Assembly (NCBI GenBank): GCA_903832735.1
Contig: CAILCO010000077.1
Span: forward strand, 1-64,000
DNA length: 64,000 nucleotides
From: an uncultured Sterolibacterium sp.
Lineage (GTDB): Bacteria > Pseudomonadota > Gammaproteobacteria > Burkholderiales > Rhodocyclaceae
Direction of reading: 5' to 3'
The notes under the pieces were generated by a model. It saw only the letters and a list, made by a program, of their open reading frames with translations. It was not told the DNA's origin and made no database searches. Positions 27,719 to 62,511 of the stretch are shown piece after piece. The stretch's first letter is position 1. Each line of letters starts with the position of its first letter. Position numbers and translations under genes: made by a program.

Positions 27719-29116
27719 ATGCCAATGCCGCCGCCCATGGATGCCAAGGCCGTCGCAGCTGTCTGGCGCGCCCAGTTGGCGCCAACCACGCTCGTAGCAC
27801 CTCCCAGCGCACGCATGCCTGAGAGCGTGTCTGAACTGGTTCAGGCGCTGGCGGAATTCGTCGCAGCGACGATCAGCGCAGACCAGACGCTGCTTGTCGT
27901 GCTACCTGACGACGAGTTGCTAGCGCAGCTTTCCAATGCCCTCGAACTGGCTCAGCGCCCGCTCTGCCTAGTGCTACCTCAACCAGGCTTCGCCGCCCGG
28001 ACCGCCTTGCGCGCGACTTTGTCGCTATTGAAGAGCCGGCTTGCGCGAGGCGGCGAGAACAGTTGCGCGGCCGCCTGGCAGGCACAACAGGCTCGCCTCA
28101 GGGAGCACGAAGAAATTTGGGCCGCGGCGCTTGAGTGGTGTGCCGGCAACGATGACCAACCGCCCCCGGTCGATGAGTTGTTCCCAATAGCCATCATGTC
28201 CCTCGCGCAAGCCGAGGTACAGGGCGGAGCACTACGCGACGTCGTGCTCTTCGTCTACCCAGAGCGCATACCGGGAGCCATAGCAGAAATCTTGACGCGA
28301 GGCAGACATGCGCTATTACTCTCGGACGAAGTCAATCCCGCCGCAACGGGCAGAGACCTCGCCTTGGTCGGCAAAGAAACGCGATTGTTTGCTGAACGGG
28401 AGCTTCTGGCGCAACAACTCTCCGAAATGGAACTCGAGTTTGCCACCGCACAGGCGGAGTTGGCAGAATTCACCCGCCGCTACTACGAGTTGGTAGGCGC
28501 CCGCATGGCAGAACTCGACCGGCTCCAGGCAACCATCGCCGCGGCACTCGCTGAGGTGGCGCCAGACGATGCCCCAGCCCGGGACAAGGCGCGGCAAGCC
28601 CAAGCTCAGGCAGAACGTTCGCGGCAAGAGCGCAGCCGCTTCGCCGAACTGGACAAAGCGGAGAAGCCGTTTGCCCCTTCGAGCGATCTCAAGCGCCTGT
28701 TTCGTCAAGTGGCACAGAGGATCCATCCTGACCGCGCCGAAAACGAAGCGGACCGTGGCTGGCGCACGGGTCTGATGAAGGATGCCAACCGTGCCTACCG
28801 CAACAGCGACGAAATGGTGCTGCGCGAGATTCTGGCGCAGTGGCAGGAGCGCCGCGACGACTGCACTCAAGAGGAAACGCGAACCCCGAGCAAATTGGAG
28901 CGTCAGGTCACATGGATGCAGCAGCGCATCAGCGAGATCGCGGCAGAACTAAACCGCCTGCTCGCTTCAAGCCTCTACGAGTTTTTCCTGGCGGCCAAAC
29001 TGGCCCGGGCAAGCGGCCGCGACCTCCTGAAGGAGATGGCCGACAAACTGGACAGCCAGATCGCCGCAGCCCATCTGCAACGAGAGCACCTCGAAGCACG
29101 TCGAATCATCAGTTGA
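27719..29116 (+). CDS. Coiled-coil protein with C-terminal J-like domain (HPD motif)
   Basis: 465 residues with no signal peptide. The N-terminal half (1-215) is a globular region without a motif I recognise. Residues about 225-315 are Ala/Glu/Gln/Arg-rich and likely coiled coil. Residues about 322-375 form a J-like domain, LKRLFRQVAQRIHPDRAENE followed by LMKDANRAYRNSDEMVLREI, with HPD at 336-338. HPD is the residue triplet that stimulates Hsp70 ATPases, so a DnaK co-chaperone role is likely. A second helical tail follows. A TACAAT box (27706-27711) ends 8 nt before the ATG and no ribosome binding site is evident; a leaderless message, or the Met at 27815, is possible. It converges with the Sel1 gene, with an 8-bp overlap. 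Confidence 0.75.
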   Translation: MPMPPPMDAKAVAAVWRAQLAPTTLVAPPSARMPESVSELVQALAEFVAATISADQTLLVVLPDDELLAQLSNALELAQRPLCLVLPQPGFAARTALRATLSLLKSRLARGGENSCAAAWQAQQARLREHEEIWAAALEWCAGNDDQPPPVDELFPIAIMSLAQAEVQGGALRDVVLFVYPERIPGAIAEILTRGRHALLLSDEVNPAATGRDLALVGKETRLFAERELLAQQLSEMELEFATAQAELAEFTRRYYELVGARMAELDRLQATIAAALAEVAPDDAPARDKARQAQAQAERSRQERSRFAELDKAEKPFAPSSDLKRLFRQVAQRIHPDRAENEADRGWRTGLMKDANRAYRNSDEMVLREILAQWQERRDDCTQEETRTPSKLERQVTWMQQRISEIAAELNRLLASSLYEFFLAAKLARASGRDLLKEMADKLDSQIAAAHLQREHLEARRIIS

Positions 29117-31100
29117 GCTTGTCACCGCATTCGACGCGCTCGAGGAAAGCCAGCGCTTCCTCACTACCGAGCCGGGCGGCACTGCGCAGCCACTTCATGG
29201 CCAGGCGCAAGTTCTGCGCTATGCCGTGGCCTTGATAGTAGGCGCAGCCAAGCTCATGCTGCGCATTCACATCGCCCAATAGCGCCGCGCGGCGCAGCCA
29301 GCGGACAGCCTCCCGGGGGTTGCGTGCAGCGCCCTGGCCGTGCAGCAGGCAAAATGCCACGCTATAGATGGCATAGGCGTCCTCGTGCTGTTCCAGCGCC
29401 TGCCCGTACCAACGGAGTGCCTCGCGATAGTTCCGCACGACGCCTTGACCGAAATAGCTCATGTCGGCGAGCGCAATCTTGGCGTCGAACAAGTGCGCCG
29501 CCTTGCGATACCAGAGGACCGCCTGAACACAGTCTTGCGCCATACCGATCCCGTAACGATGACATTCACCGAGCATGAAAGCCGCGCGGCTATGTCCCAA
29601 TTCGCCAGCCTTGCGGTAGTAAACGATCGCCAGTGGCGCGTCGACGGCAACGCCGTAGCCGTGGAAGTGCTTCTCGGCCTGAGTAAAATAATACCGCTCC
29701 AACTCCCCAAGCGCCGGCTGCCAACCTGCATCCGCAGCAGCCCGCAGCAGCGCTTCGCCGCGCCTCAAATGGACGCGCACGCCGATGCCATGCAGATAAC
29801 AGCGCCCCAACTCGGCCTGTGCGTGGGGATTACCGGCTGCCGTCGCGGCCTGATAGTGATCCAGGGCAACAACCATATTCTGGGGAACGCCTTCGCCGTT
29901 CTCATAACATTCCCCCAACCAGACCCGGGCCTCAGGGTCATTGCCCTGCGCTGCGCGGCGATACCAAGCTACAGCCAGCCGTTTGTTTTCTGCAACGCCG
30001 TCAGCCCAACGATAGCAGTGGCCTAGCTTGAGTTGCGCCCGGACATGCCCCTGACGCGCAGCAGCGCGGTAGTAACGGATCGCCTCGGTAATGTCCTGGG
30101 CCACGCCTGCACTGCCGAAAGCGTGGGATTCTCCCAACTCGAATTCGGCCTCGCGGTTGCCGCACTCCGTAGCGCGGCGATACCAACCCAGGCCGGCCTG
30201 CGGATCACGCGTCACGCCATAGCCGAAGCTATAGCACTGCCCAAGTAGAAACATCGCGCCGGTGACGCGTTTCCTCGCTGCGGCACGAAACCAGACTACC
30301 GCCTCGATGCAATCCTGCCGCCCGCCCTCGCCGGCATACAGGCACATACCCAGGCAATACATCGCGGCGGCATTGCCCCCTTCGGCCGCTGCGCGCCATA
30401 GGCGCGCAGCGGCCGCGCGGTCTTCGACGACGCCGCGGCCAAAGAAATGGCAACGCGCAAGCAGATCGCGCGCCCGCTGGTGCCCCTGCTCCGCCGCCAA
30501 TCCAAGCCAGCGGGCAGCCTCGGCGAAATCACGTGCGACGCCTTGACCGAAATAGTGGCTGCGACCCAGCCAGTACTGGGCCAGACGCGCGCCCAGGCCC
30601 CCTCGGCTCGCAGCCGTTCGGAAAAGTTCGGCCGCCTTAGCCGCATTCGCGGCCACGCCGTGGCCGCGCAGCAGGCAAAGAGCCAGCCAGGTGATGGCAC
30701 GCGGTTCGTCGCGGGAGGCCGCGAGTTCGAACAAGCGAACCGCCTGAGAATGATCCTTCTGCAGGCCGAAGCCGTTGTAACGCAGCCAACCCAGTACTGC
30801 CTCACCGCTAGCGCAGGCGCGCTCGGCACTGGCGGCAGCCCAGCGCACGGCCTGCGGGTAAGACCTTGCAATGCCCTCGCCGGCCGCAAAACGCCAGGCC
30901 AATTCCCCTTGGGCCGCCATGTTGCCGGCCTCGGCCATGCGCCGCAACTCGACCAGGGGTACGCTGCGCCAAAACTCATCGACCGGCCCGAGCAGCTCGA
31001 CGCCTTGCTTGGACCCACGTTCGATGAGGCTGGACTCGAGTACCTCCCGGAAAATCCCGATCAGTGCTGACGATTGCAGGGGAACTAGAGCATCTTTCAT
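29109..31100 (-). CDS. Sel1-like repeat protein (16 repeats)
   Basis: 663 residues with no signal peptide or membrane segment. From about residue 65 to the end I count 16 consecutive Sel1-like repeats of 35-38 residues, on the pattern LGxxYxxGxGVxxDxxxAxxWxxxAA, for example LLGQCYSFGYGVTRDPQAGL and ELGCAYYQGHGIAQNLRLAM. Repeat 12 has an insertion. Such solenoids are protein-protein scaffolds. The N-terminal 65 residues are unique. It converges with and slightly overlaps the J-like protein gene; both lack export signals, so they could act together in the cytoplasm, which is inference. Confidence 0.88.
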   Translation of the reverse strand: MKDALVPLQSSALIGIFREVLESSLIERGSKQGVELLGPVDEFWRSVPLVELRRMAEAGNMAAQGELAWRFAAGEGIARSYPQAVRWAAASAERACASGEAVLGWLRYNGFGLQKDHSQAVRLFELAASRDEPRAITWLALCLLRGHGVAANAAKAAELFRTAASRGGLGARLAQYWLGRSHYFGQGVARDFAEAARWLGLAAEQGHQRARDLLARCHFFGRGVVEDRAAAARLWRAAAEGGNAAAMYCLGMCLYAGEGGRQDCIEAVVWFRAAARKRVTGAMFLLGQCYSFGYGVTRDPQAGLGWYRRATECGNREAEFELGESHAFGSAGVAQDITEAIRYYRAAARQGHVRAQLKLGHCYRWADGVAENKRLAVAWYRRAAQGNDPEARVWLGECYENGEGVPQNMVVALDHYQAATAAGNPHAQAELGRCYLHGIGVRVHLRRGEALLRAAADAGWQPALGELERYYFTQAEKHFHGYGVAVDAPLAIVYYRKAGELGHSRAAFMLGECHRYGIGMAQDCVQAVLWYRKAAHLFDAKIALADMSYFGQGVVRNYREALRWYGQALEQHEDAYAIYSVAFCLLHGQGAARNPREAVRWLRRAALLGDVNAQHELGCAYYQGHGIAQNLRLAMKWLRSAARLGSEEALAFLERVECGDKLN

Positions 31101-31144
31101 GATCGCCTAGATTACCGGAATTTGTAACGCATGGTCCGTCATCC

Positions 31145-31179
31145 TTATCCACAATATCTGTGGATAAGCTTGTGGATTG
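31145..31179. promoter_or_regulatory. DnaA box cluster
   Basis: Two perfect consensus DnaA boxes in inverted orientation: TTATCCACA (31145-31153) and TGTGGATAA (31159-31167), separated by ATATC. A third, TGTGGATTG (31171-31179), is close to consensus. AT-rich DNA follows from about 31235. The cluster lies in the 300-bp gap between the Sel1 gene and xseA, about 30 kb from hda. Confidence 0.7.
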
Positions 31180-31404
31180 GATGGGGATGGATGGCTTAAA
31201 TTGGCTCCCCATAAGCCTTTTCCTTAGACCGCCACAAAATGTTGCTTTATTAATTTGCTTATTATTCAGCTAGTTACAAAAGAACCCCGGACGCCACGCG
31301 GGATTGCGACGTTCTTGCGGAAATACCGAAGACTCGCTGTGGATTCCGCTACAATCGCGGGCAATATTTACGCACTTGTCAACCCATATTTTTGCAAACC
31401 CCGG

Positions 31405-32730
31405 ATGATGGCTGAAGTCCTGACTGTTTCCGCACTGAATCGCCGCGCCCGCGAAATGCTACAGCAGAGCTTCCCCCTGTTGTGGGTCAGCGGCGAAGTG
31501 TCCAACCTAACCCGCGCAACGTCGGGACATATATATTTCTCGCTTAAGGACGAAACTGCCCAGGTACGCTGCGTCATGTTCCGCAATCGCGCCCAGTCAG
31601 TGCCGTGGCGTCTGGAAAATGGCCAGCAAGTCGAGGCCCAGGTACTGGTGACATTGTTTGAACCCCGCGGCGAATTTCAACTTACTATCGAGGGACTACG
31701 TCGCGCCGGTTTGGGGGCACGCTACGAGGCCTATGCTCGCCTGCGCGAGAAACTTGAGTGCGAGGGACTGTTCGCGGCGGAGAGGAAGCGGGAACTGCCT
31801 CGCTTTCCGAGCCGGATCGGAATAGTCACCTCGCCACAGGCGGCGGCGCTGCGCGATGTCCTGACGACGCTGCGACGTCGCGCAGGGCATCTGCCGGTGA
31901 TCCTCTACCCAACACCAGTGCAAGGAGAAGGGTCAGGCGAGAAGATCGCGGCCGCGATTACGCTGGCCGGCCAGCGGGCCAAGTTAGACTCAATCGAGGC
32001 GCTGATCGTCGTCCGCGGCGGCGGCAGCATCGAAGATCTCTGGGCCTTCAACGAGGAAGTAGTGGCACGAGCCATCGCTGCCTGTCCGATACCGGTGGTG
32101 TGCGGCATCGGACACGAGACCGACACCACCATGGCCGACCTTGCTTCCGATCGCCGCGCGGCCACGCCGACAGCGGCAGCGGAACTGATCAGTGCCGGGT
32201 GGTTCGCCGCAACGCACGAACTCGCATCGCTCGCCGACAACTTGCGACACGGACTGCGGTCGCTGCTCGAGGCACGGATGCAACGGCTGGATCTTCTCGC
32301 CCATCGCCTGATCCACCCTGGTGCGCGTTTGGGGCGTGACCGACAGACTGTGGCACATTTGGCGACGCGTCTCATTGCCGCGCTGGCGAGGAGGTTCCGC
32401 CATGATGCCGTGGTCCTGGAACGCATCCGCCTGCGCTTCTACCATGCTCGGCCGCTCATCCAGCCCATGCAGGGCCGCCTGGCGCTGGCAGAACAAAAGC
32501 TCTCCGCCGCAGCGCACAGCAGTCTCGCCGAACGGCGCGGCCGCCTGGATACGCTCGCCGCAGCACTCAGCCAACTCAGTCCGCAAGCCACGCTGGAGCG
32601 AGGCTACAGCATTGTGCGTGACCGAAATGGCAAGGTGCTGCGCGACAGCAGCGAAATCGCCGCCGGCGATACATTGGAATTGCTTTTCGCGGCCGGCTGG
32701 GCGCATGCCGAAGTCCGCAAAACAGGCTAA
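31405..32730 (+). CDS. xseA: Exodeoxyribonuclease VII large subunit
   Basis: 441 residues from ATG 31405; a second ATG follows at once. The N-terminal OB-fold is EVLTVSALNRRAREMLQQ then VSGEVSNLTRATSGHIYFSL, and the catalytic core carries FPSRIGIVTSPQAAALRDVL, RGGGSIEDLWAFNEE and GHETDTTMADLASDRRAATP. The C-terminal helical region, about residues 270-400, is a long coiled coil. With XseB it degrades single-stranded DNA. The upstream gap of about 300 bp holds DnaA boxes. Confidence 0.96.
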   Translation: MMAEVLTVSALNRRAREMLQQSFPLLWVSGEVSNLTRATSGHIYFSLKDETAQVRCVMFRNRAQSVPWRLENGQQVEAQVLVTLFEPRGEFQLTIEGLRRAGLGARYEAYARLREKLECEGLFAAERKRELPRFPSRIGIVTSPQAAALRDVLTTLRRRAGHLPVILYPTPVQGEGSGEKIAAAITLAGQRAKLDSIEALIVVRGGGSIEDLWAFNEEVVARAIAACPIPVVCGIGHETDTTMADLASDRRAATPTAAAELISAGWFAATHELASLADNLRHGLRSLLEARMQRLDLLAHRLIHPGARLGRDRQTVAHLATRLIAALARRFRHDAVVLERIRLRFYHARPLIQPMQGRLALAEQKLSAAAHSSLAERRGRLDTLAAALSQLSPQATLERGYSIVRDRNGKVLRDSSEIAAGDTLELLFAAGWAHAEVRKTG

Positions 32731-34529: not shown

Positions 34530-34832
34530 TTACTTTGCGGCGGCGGGCTTGTCGGCCGGGGCAGCGGCAGCCTTGTCAGCTTTCTTATCAGCCTTGGCGG
34601 CCTTCTTGTCAGCCTTGGCGGCAGCCTTGTCGGCCGTGGCGGCCTTCGCATCAGCCGTGGCAGCCTTCACATCAGCCTTACCAGCGGCCTTGTCAGCCTT
34701 AACAGCAGCCTTGTCAGCAGCCTTGTCAGCCTTGACAGCAGCCTTATCAGCCGGGGCAGCAGCAGGCGCGTCGGCGGCGAAAGCAACAGAAGCGAACAGG
34801 GTTGCAACGAGAACGGCCAGAATTTTGCTCAT
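34530..34832 (-). CDS. Small exported Lys/Ala-rich repeat protein
   Basis: 100 residues. The signal peptide MSKILAVLVATLFASVAFA is followed by a mature chain almost wholly of Ala, Lys, Asp and Pro. The 11-residue unit DKAAVKADKAA occurs twice in tandem (29-39, 40-50) and continues in degenerate form (KADKKAAKADKKADKAA). Hendecad Ala/Lys/Asp repeats resemble LEA-type or histone-H1-like helices, and the composition recalls the acid-shock protein Asr. The function is unknown; a periplasmic polyanion-binding or protective role is inference. A second such protein lies upstream on the same strand. Confidence 0.75.
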   Translation of the reverse strand: MSKILAVLVATLFASVAFAADAPAAAPADKAAVKADKAADKAAVKADKAAGKADVKAATADAKAATADKAAAKADKKAAKADKKADKAAAAPADKPAAAK

Positions 34833-61810: not shown

Positions 61811-62511
61811 CGCTGCAACAACTGCTGCTCGATATTCGGCCCGAAGAGGCTCCCAGCCTCAACAATTTCGTGGTCGGCGACAACGCCGAACTGATGTCGC
61901 GCCTGAATGGCCTTGCCGACCCGCGCGTGTTCGACCAGATTTTCCTGTGGGGCCCGCCAGGCAGCGGCCGCAGCCATCTATTGCGCGGCGCGCTGGCCAA
62001 GGCGCAGGCTAGGGCACGCCCGGTGATCCTGATCGACGGCGCCATGCTCGGCGAAGAGCTGGCGGCGGCACCCGGCAGCCTGCTGATCGTGGATAACGTC
62101 GAGGCTTTGAACGAGAGCGCCCAGATCACCCTGTTCCGCACCTTCAACGCTGCGCGCCTGGTCGGCCTGGCGCTGCTCCTTGCCGGCCAGTCGCCGCCGT
62201 TGCGTCTCGCGTTGCGCGAGGACCTGCGCACCCGCATCGGCGCGACCCTGGTCTACGAGGTGAAACCGTTGTCCGAGTCGGACAAGGCCGATGCACTGAA
62301 ACGCCACGCGCATGCCCGTGGCATGCGCATCGACAATGCCCTGATCGATTACCTGCTGCGCCACGGTCGCCGCGATCTGCCTTCGCTGCTCCGCGTTCTC
62401 GACACGCTCGACCGCGTCTCGCTGGAGCAACAACGGGTATTGACCCTGCCGTTGCTGCGCGACGTCCTGCAGACAACACTGGAGCAAGACCATGGACCTC
62501 GTACTGTTTGA
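61807..62511 (+). CDS. hda: DnaA regulatory inactivator Hda
   Basis: 234 residues from a GTG at 61807 that overlaps the permease stop. It is a DnaA-like AAA+ protein: Walker A WGPPGSGRSHLLRGAL, Walker B LLIVDNVEAL, sensor region LALLLAGQSPPLRLALREDL. The opening TLQQLLLDIRPEEAPSLNNF includes a QLLLDI clamp-binding-like motif (QxxLxL/F). It stimulates ATP hydrolysis by DnaA with the DNA-bound sliding clamp. It overlaps the HAD gene. The DnaA-box cluster at 31.1 kb is in the same window. Confidence 0.95.
   Translation: MTLQQLLLDIRPEEAPSLNNFVVGDNAELMSRLNGLADPRVFDQIFLWGPPGSGRSHLLRGALAKAQARARPVILIDGAMLGEELAAAPGSLLIVDNVEALNESAQITLFRTFNAARLVGLALLLAGQSPPLRLALREDLRTRIGATLVYEVKPLSESDKADALKRHAHARGMRIDNALIDYLLRHGRRDLPSLLRVLDTLDRVSLEQQRVLTLPLLRDVLQTTLEQDHGPRTV

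Follow-up and report, generated by a model that had tools for sequence, protein, structure and literature searches.

Genomic context of the DnaA boxes upstream of xseA

The sequence analysed here (hereafter, the window) is a contiguous stretch of 64,000 nucleotides from an uncultured Sterolibacterium sp. Positions 31145-31179 read TTATCCACA-ATATC-TGTGGATAA-GCT-TGTGGATTG, which corresponds to two exact DnaA boxes facing each other, followed by a third box. This three-box core is intergenic, being located between a Sel1-repeat protein gene and xseA, the start of which lies approximately 225 bp downstream of box III. Boxes II and III alone meet the published definition of a double DnaA box, namely two same-strand boxes 2-3 bp apart with a gene downstream (PMC11317965). 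The relevant features are:

29109..31100, minus strand: Sel1-repeat protein gene, divergent from xseA
31144..31249, plus strand: whole element of ~105 bp, core plus conserved downstream region (positions 3-108 of the 110 in model R1)
31145..31153, plus strand: DnaA box I, TTATCCACA, a perfect consensus site on the strand opposite to boxes II and III; its offset and orientation are those of box I in DARS1 and DARS2
31154..31158: spacer ATATC between boxes I and II, 5 bp, the length that predominates in the family and class
31159..31167, minus strand: DnaA box II, TTATCCACA, exact consensus
31171..31179, minus strand: DnaA box III, CAATCCACA, two mismatches, 3 bp from box II
31196..31230, plus strand: conserved block of the accessory region at +51 to +85, with CTAAGTCCnnnnCCCnnAAGGnTTTTTnTTACTnT as its consensus in the family, from the alignment of 35 elements
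31231..31245: Fis-like 15-mer (+86 to +100), GCCACAAAATGTTGC, from the alignment; its identity as a Fis site is inferred
31235..31247, minus strand: IHF-like site, AAGCAACATTTTG, one mismatch to WATCAANNNNTTR, adjoining the AT-rich stretch
31240..31280: AT-rich stretch, 24% GC against 60% GC for the window
31405..32730, plus strand: xseA, exodeoxyribonuclease VII large subunit (TIGR00237, E 2.3e-134)
61822..62511, plus strand: hda, DnaA regulatory inactivator (TIGR03420, E 5.6e-62)

A first-pass annotation, made without database searches, had described two exact boxes facing each other across 5 bp, a near-consensus third box 3 bp further on, AT-rich DNA nearby and hda within the same window. 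All of these descriptions held.

Some additional features of the neighbourhood were observed. exbB and xseA adjoin directly in many relatives; in the window they are separated by the Sel1-repeat gene and by a gene (27719-29116) that contains a J-domain-like stretch, which together cover 27719-31100. The region 34530-34832 encodes a small, low-complexity, Ala/Lys-rich protein similar to histone H1-like proteins.

Rarity of the core within its genome

Single exact DnaA boxes are not enriched in this genome, because the 13 found in 4.33 Mb (176 contigs) are close to the 8 obtained with a reversed-pattern control. At a tolerance of up to 3 mismatches, the complete core gave a single hit (apart from the overlap of the palindrome with itself), against none for the control pattern and a chance expectation of about 0.006 per genome. 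A second, weaker core was detected at C13:22213-22249, beside a permease-like gene (4 mismatches, 21.9 bits). The dnaA gene with its flanking boxes, and with it oriC, is found on contig C46, and not on the contig that holds the core. No change in the sign of the GC skew was found at the core, and its box layout is unlike that of the oriC region of the same genome.

Geometry shared with the DARS sites of Escherichia coli

The core of a DARS (DnaA-reactivating sequence) is defined by three DnaA boxes whose spacing is identical in DARS1 and DARS2, with box I opposite to boxes II and III (PMC5742627, PMC8682772). In the scanned regions of E. coli, DARS1 reads TTATCCACT-ATTCC-TGTGGATAA-CCA-TGTGTATTA and DARS2 reads TTATTCACC-TTTTC-TGTGGATAG-AGT-TGTGAAGAA. 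The box starts, 0 (+), +14 (-) and +26 (-), are identical in DARS1, DARS2 and the core of the window, with spacers of 5 and 3 bp.

The spacing is also strongly preserved among relatives. When the distance between two inverted exact boxes was left free between 0 and 25 bp, the 5-bp spacer accounted for 64 of 69 pairs across 151 genomes of the family, and for 70 of the 75 pairs tallied (of at least 75 in all) in a class-wide sample of 151 genomes with a single genome for each genus. Five pairs deviate in either set, and two of these represent the 17-bp distance between boxes I and III of the same core.

A scan allowing up to 3 mismatches recovered the core from 196 of the 200 genomes sampled in the family, covering all 68 of 68 genera, and from 181 of 200 genomes of the order, with no control match in either. 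In the class it was detected in 197 of 229 genomes (control pattern in 2). Across a sample of the phylum, most genomes of the window's class carried it, and the other classes were split. A small-genome family outside this class (f233) was mostly positive in this sample, and several large-genome families had almost no core. Members of one genus (g62; genomes G148, G062 and G112, loci L086-L089) displayed up to ten DARS-like cores per genome, several of them near-identical copies dispersed over the chromosome, as if the element had multiplied.

The first-pass annotation had considered a special role unlikely if similar box pairs were frequent across the genome or if the boxes were not conserved in relatives. 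Both checks were run and neither refuted the idea: there are only the 13 exact boxes, the core is unique, and the boxes are kept upstream of xseA.

Placement upstream of xseA and priA

Since the loci behind the extended consensus had themselves been found through the motif, conservation upstream of xseA was judged from a motif-blind set of 80 loci, which were collected from named genomes by means of the XseA protein and scanned only afterwards. The core was found upstream of xseA, with up to 4 mismatches, in 30 of these 80 loci, against a background of 7-11 mismatches. The positive loci nearly all belong to betaproteobacteria (including Sulfuritalea, Thauera, Propionivibrio, Nitrosomonas, Thiobacillus, Janthinobacterium, Undibacterium, Herbaspirillum, Methyloversatilis, Tepidiphilus, Roseateles and others), and the core always has the same orientation, approximately 170-430 bp before the XseA match. 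The xseA loci of enterobacteria, Pseudomonas, Vibrio and Shewanella showed no core and remained at the background level (8-11 mismatches), nor was the core found upstream of xseA in Neisseria, Methylophilus or Herminiimonas in this XseA-anchored scan. Two Iodobacter loci (L101, L168) retain boxes II and III and have no box I.

In many genomes of the family, the core is located in the divergent intergenic region between xseA and exbB; a Sel1-repeat gene lies beside it in the window's genus and in one other genome. A second recurrent setting, shared by many relatives, is the hemE-priA intergenic region (L060, L071, L076, L078 and L080). The priA site of the window's own genome (C138:6263-6310) is decayed, with the double box retained and box I lost.

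The genome under study is a draft, and chromosomal distances were taken from four complete relatives with a verified xseA core. In these (G026, G100, G127 and G148), the core is separated from dnaA by 37.8, 30.7, 28.5 and 24.7% of the chromosome, respectively. These distances are comparable to those of DARS1 (33%) and DARS2 (21%) from oriC, calculated from coordinates. The priA core is found only ~16 kb from dnaA in G026 and G100.

A conserved unit of approximately 105 bp

Conservation extends beyond the three boxes. A total of 35 elements could be aligned almost without gaps over 110 columns, and a model of 110 positions (R1), trained without the window element, recovered that element at full length from its own genome (68.5 bits, E 1.6e-18). 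The accessory part of the window element alone scored z = 6.6 against shuffled sequences. In E. coli, R1 matched DARS1 (24.4 bits, E 4e-6) as well as DARS2 (16.4 bits, E 1.4e-3), with the core contributing most of the match; it had no match to the oriC of the window's genome or to five gammaproteobacterial xseA loci. A test for a close sequence relationship between the accessory region and that of DARS1 gave only a weak resemblance (p ~0.01); the resemblance to the downstream region of DARS2 was not significant.

The 15-mer at +86 to +100 has the consensus G-CC-n-AAAAATT-nn-G-C, in which the G at +86 and the C at +100 (Fis positions -7 and +7) are invariant in 35/35 elements. A G and a C at this distance of 14 bp, with an A-rich centre between them, make up the frame of a Fis site; the inner positions fit only moderately, and poorly in the window. 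No exact IHF consensus was found in the window element or nearby, and the IHF-like site at 31235-31247 is weak evidence alone, since 23 sites with one mismatch occur in the window.

Members of the Oxalobacteraceae carry this unit in tandem. In Janthinobacterium, Undibacterium, Herbaspirillum, Duganella and Pseudoduganella, 5-7 units occur upstream of xseA, all in the same orientation and approximately 105-215 bp apart, forming arrays that extend to more than 1 kb from the gene. The arrays are located as follows:

L099, L103, L105, L107, L111, L114, L117 and L124, ~1770-2870: Oxalobacteraceae arrays, upstream of xseA

An exact IHF consensus starts at +51/+52 in 24 of the 54 Oxalobacteraceae units, and TTGAT is present at +58/+59 in 45 of them; elsewhere in these 70 kb, exact matches to the IHF consensus number only about 11. 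In many units, the final motif (near +86 to +101) is of the GGCA or AGCA type. The resulting order of core, IHF and Fis-like site is that of DARS2 (PMC4245941), although binding by IHF and Fis is inferred here.

A likely DnaA-reactivating element

Three readings had been offered for the boxes in the first-pass annotation: a datA-like locus, a DARS, or DnaA control of xseA. The DARS reading is strongly supported on structure, with activity inferred; a datA-type cluster is not supported, and DnaA may still control xseA in addition. Based on these findings, we propose that the site is likely a DARS-type element of DnaA reactivation. The three-box geometry, its conservation, the ~105-bp unit and its intergenic position are established by our data; biochemical activity is an inference. 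The DnaA protein of the same genome is compatible with such a role: it keeps R227, D269 and L290, which are reported to be needed for DARS activity, and also the DNA-contacting residues, with Q in place of the E21 contact.

The steps that follow, namely DnaA binding, ADP release, IHF/Fis binding and an effect on initiation, are inferred for this site. DnaA molecules have been described as head to head on boxes I and II of DARS (PMC5742627, PMC8682772), and they would adopt the same arrangement here, with box III giving the molecule on box II a neighbour. The assembly of ADP-DnaA on the site would loosen the bound ADP, and apo-DnaA would be released. This apo-DnaA would then reload with ATP, raising the pool of ATP-DnaA for the next initiation at oriC, an action opposite to that of Hda. 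The region from +51 to +100 is probably bound by DNA-bending proteins (IHF and/or Fis), which would tune the element. Full activity of DARS1 is known to need ~42 bp flanking its last box, box III (PMC4585315).

Several points speak against this proposal. No biochemical or genetic evidence exists for the site, and its activity is inferred. Conservation just upstream of xseA, and of priA elsewhere, would also fit a transcriptional role. Some lineages lose box I and keep boxes II and III, as in the Iodobacter loci and the priA site of the window's own genome. Finally, the similarity of the accessory region is weak to DARS1 and not significant to DARS2, the window element has no exact IHF consensus, and its Fis-like 15-mer fits only the G/A-T/C frame.

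Alternative explanations

The most serious alternative is that DnaA controls the transcription of xseA, and of priA and others, such that repair and restart genes track the replication cycle. In its favour, the orientation relative to xseA is constant, the distance upstream of it is fairly constant in betaproteobacteria, and the element recurs before priA. Furthermore, double boxes bound by DnaA occur before replication, repair and nucleotide genes in E. coli, and DARS1 and DARS2 are themselves upstream of uvrB and mutH (PMC11317965). A double box would suffice for this purpose, yet the inverted box I is kept at exactly 5 bp. In addition, the ~105-bp unit is also found at unrelated loci, the 5-7 tandem units extend more than 1 kb upstream of xseA, and no sigma-70-like promoter was seen beside the element. 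Transcriptional control is unlikely to be the best explanation by itself; it could coexist with a DARS.

A datA-like site, titrating DnaA or inactivating it through ATP hydrolysis, is much less plausible still. Two perfect boxes and a third would be expected to bind DnaA strongly, and the Oxalobacteraceae arrays multiply the sites as a titration locus would. However, there are only three boxes within 35 bp, in the layout of a DARS, and three boxes titrate little; the box cluster of datA is larger and surrounds one IHF site (PMC5742627). Spacing held to a single value is also not needed for titration. This reading was rejected on box number and layout. A chance cluster can practically be ruled out, as can the binding of an unrelated factor to sites that only look like DnaA boxes. 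Single exact boxes are indeed about as frequent as the reversed control, but a core is hardly ever expected by chance, this one is conserved throughout the genera of the family, and the letters of all three boxes match the DnaA consensus. A second replication origin, or the remnant of an oriC, would account for DnaA boxes that adjoin AT-rich DNA, and is excluded at least as firmly: dnaA and its flanking boxes are on contig C46, the GC skew does not switch, and the layout does not resemble the oriC region. It was rejected on the position of dnaA and the GC skew.

Distribution and significance of DARS-type elements

The core itself is of a known kind. Published work reports the conservation of DARS in gammaproteobacterial relatives of E. 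coli (PMC4245941), and a review places these sites in beta- or gammaproteobacteria close to this species (PMC5742627). To our knowledge, neither a DARS upstream of xseA nor DARS in arrays has been reported, and the same applies to the class-wide distribution and the ~105-bp betaproteobacterial unit; our search covered the open-access literature and left subscription papers and preprints out of scope. The element is conserved through most Betaproteobacteria, and this type of control, so far described almost exclusively for E. coli and its relatives, is probably far more widespread.

A bolder reading, which in our judgement could prove wrong as easily as right, is that DARS-type reactivation is ancestral to all Beta- and Gammaproteobacteria and not a specialty of the E. 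coli group. In betaproteobacteria it would take the form of a portable ~105-bp module (core plus an IHF/Fis-type accessory site) that has become fixed ahead of xseA and, in many cases, priA, and its amplification into the Oxalobacteraceae arrays of 5-7 units would set DnaA recharging by copy number at one locus.

If these elements are true DARS, chromosomal recharging of DnaA would be general in Beta- and Gammaproteobacteria, usually from one to several predictable sites per genome, and the control of initiation would become testable beyond E. coli. The natural arrays of 5-7 units would offer a ready dosage series. With xseA and priA as neighbours here, and uvrB and mutH in E. coli, one may ask why such elements are located beside repair and restart genes.

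Comparison with known systems

The DnaA-box clusters of Bacillus subtilis are likewise located outside oriC and affect initiation; DARS-type reactivation has not been reported there (PMC13220808). The double DnaA boxes of the E. coli DnaA regulon (purH, polA, nrdD and others) resemble boxes II and III of the window, which are on the same strand and 3 bp apart, but they have neither an inverted box I at 5 bp nor a conserved downstream region. E. coli datA is also non-coding, lies apart from oriC and uses DnaA boxes to alter the nucleotide state of DnaA, as is inferred for the window element; it differs in its bigger cluster of boxes around an IHF site, in acting via ATP hydrolysis and in its arrangement.

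The other two systems are the DARS of E. coli. DARS2, upstream of mutH, shares the core geometry, and its order of core, IHF and Fis (PMC4245941) is also suggested by the Oxalobacteraceae units; it is larger, however (455 bp, with further boxes), and the window element has no exact IHF site. DARS1, in the bioD-uvrB intergenic region, differs from the window element in its neighbour gene, which is not xseA, and in a downstream region that is only weakly similar (p ~0.01), and activity has not been shown for the window element. Nevertheless, both have three boxes with an inverted box I, spacers of 5 and 3 bp and two of three boxes near perfect, as well as a size of ~100 bp, a place upstream of a DNA-repair gene and, for the window element as judged from the four complete relatives, a distance of about a third of the chromosome from oriC.
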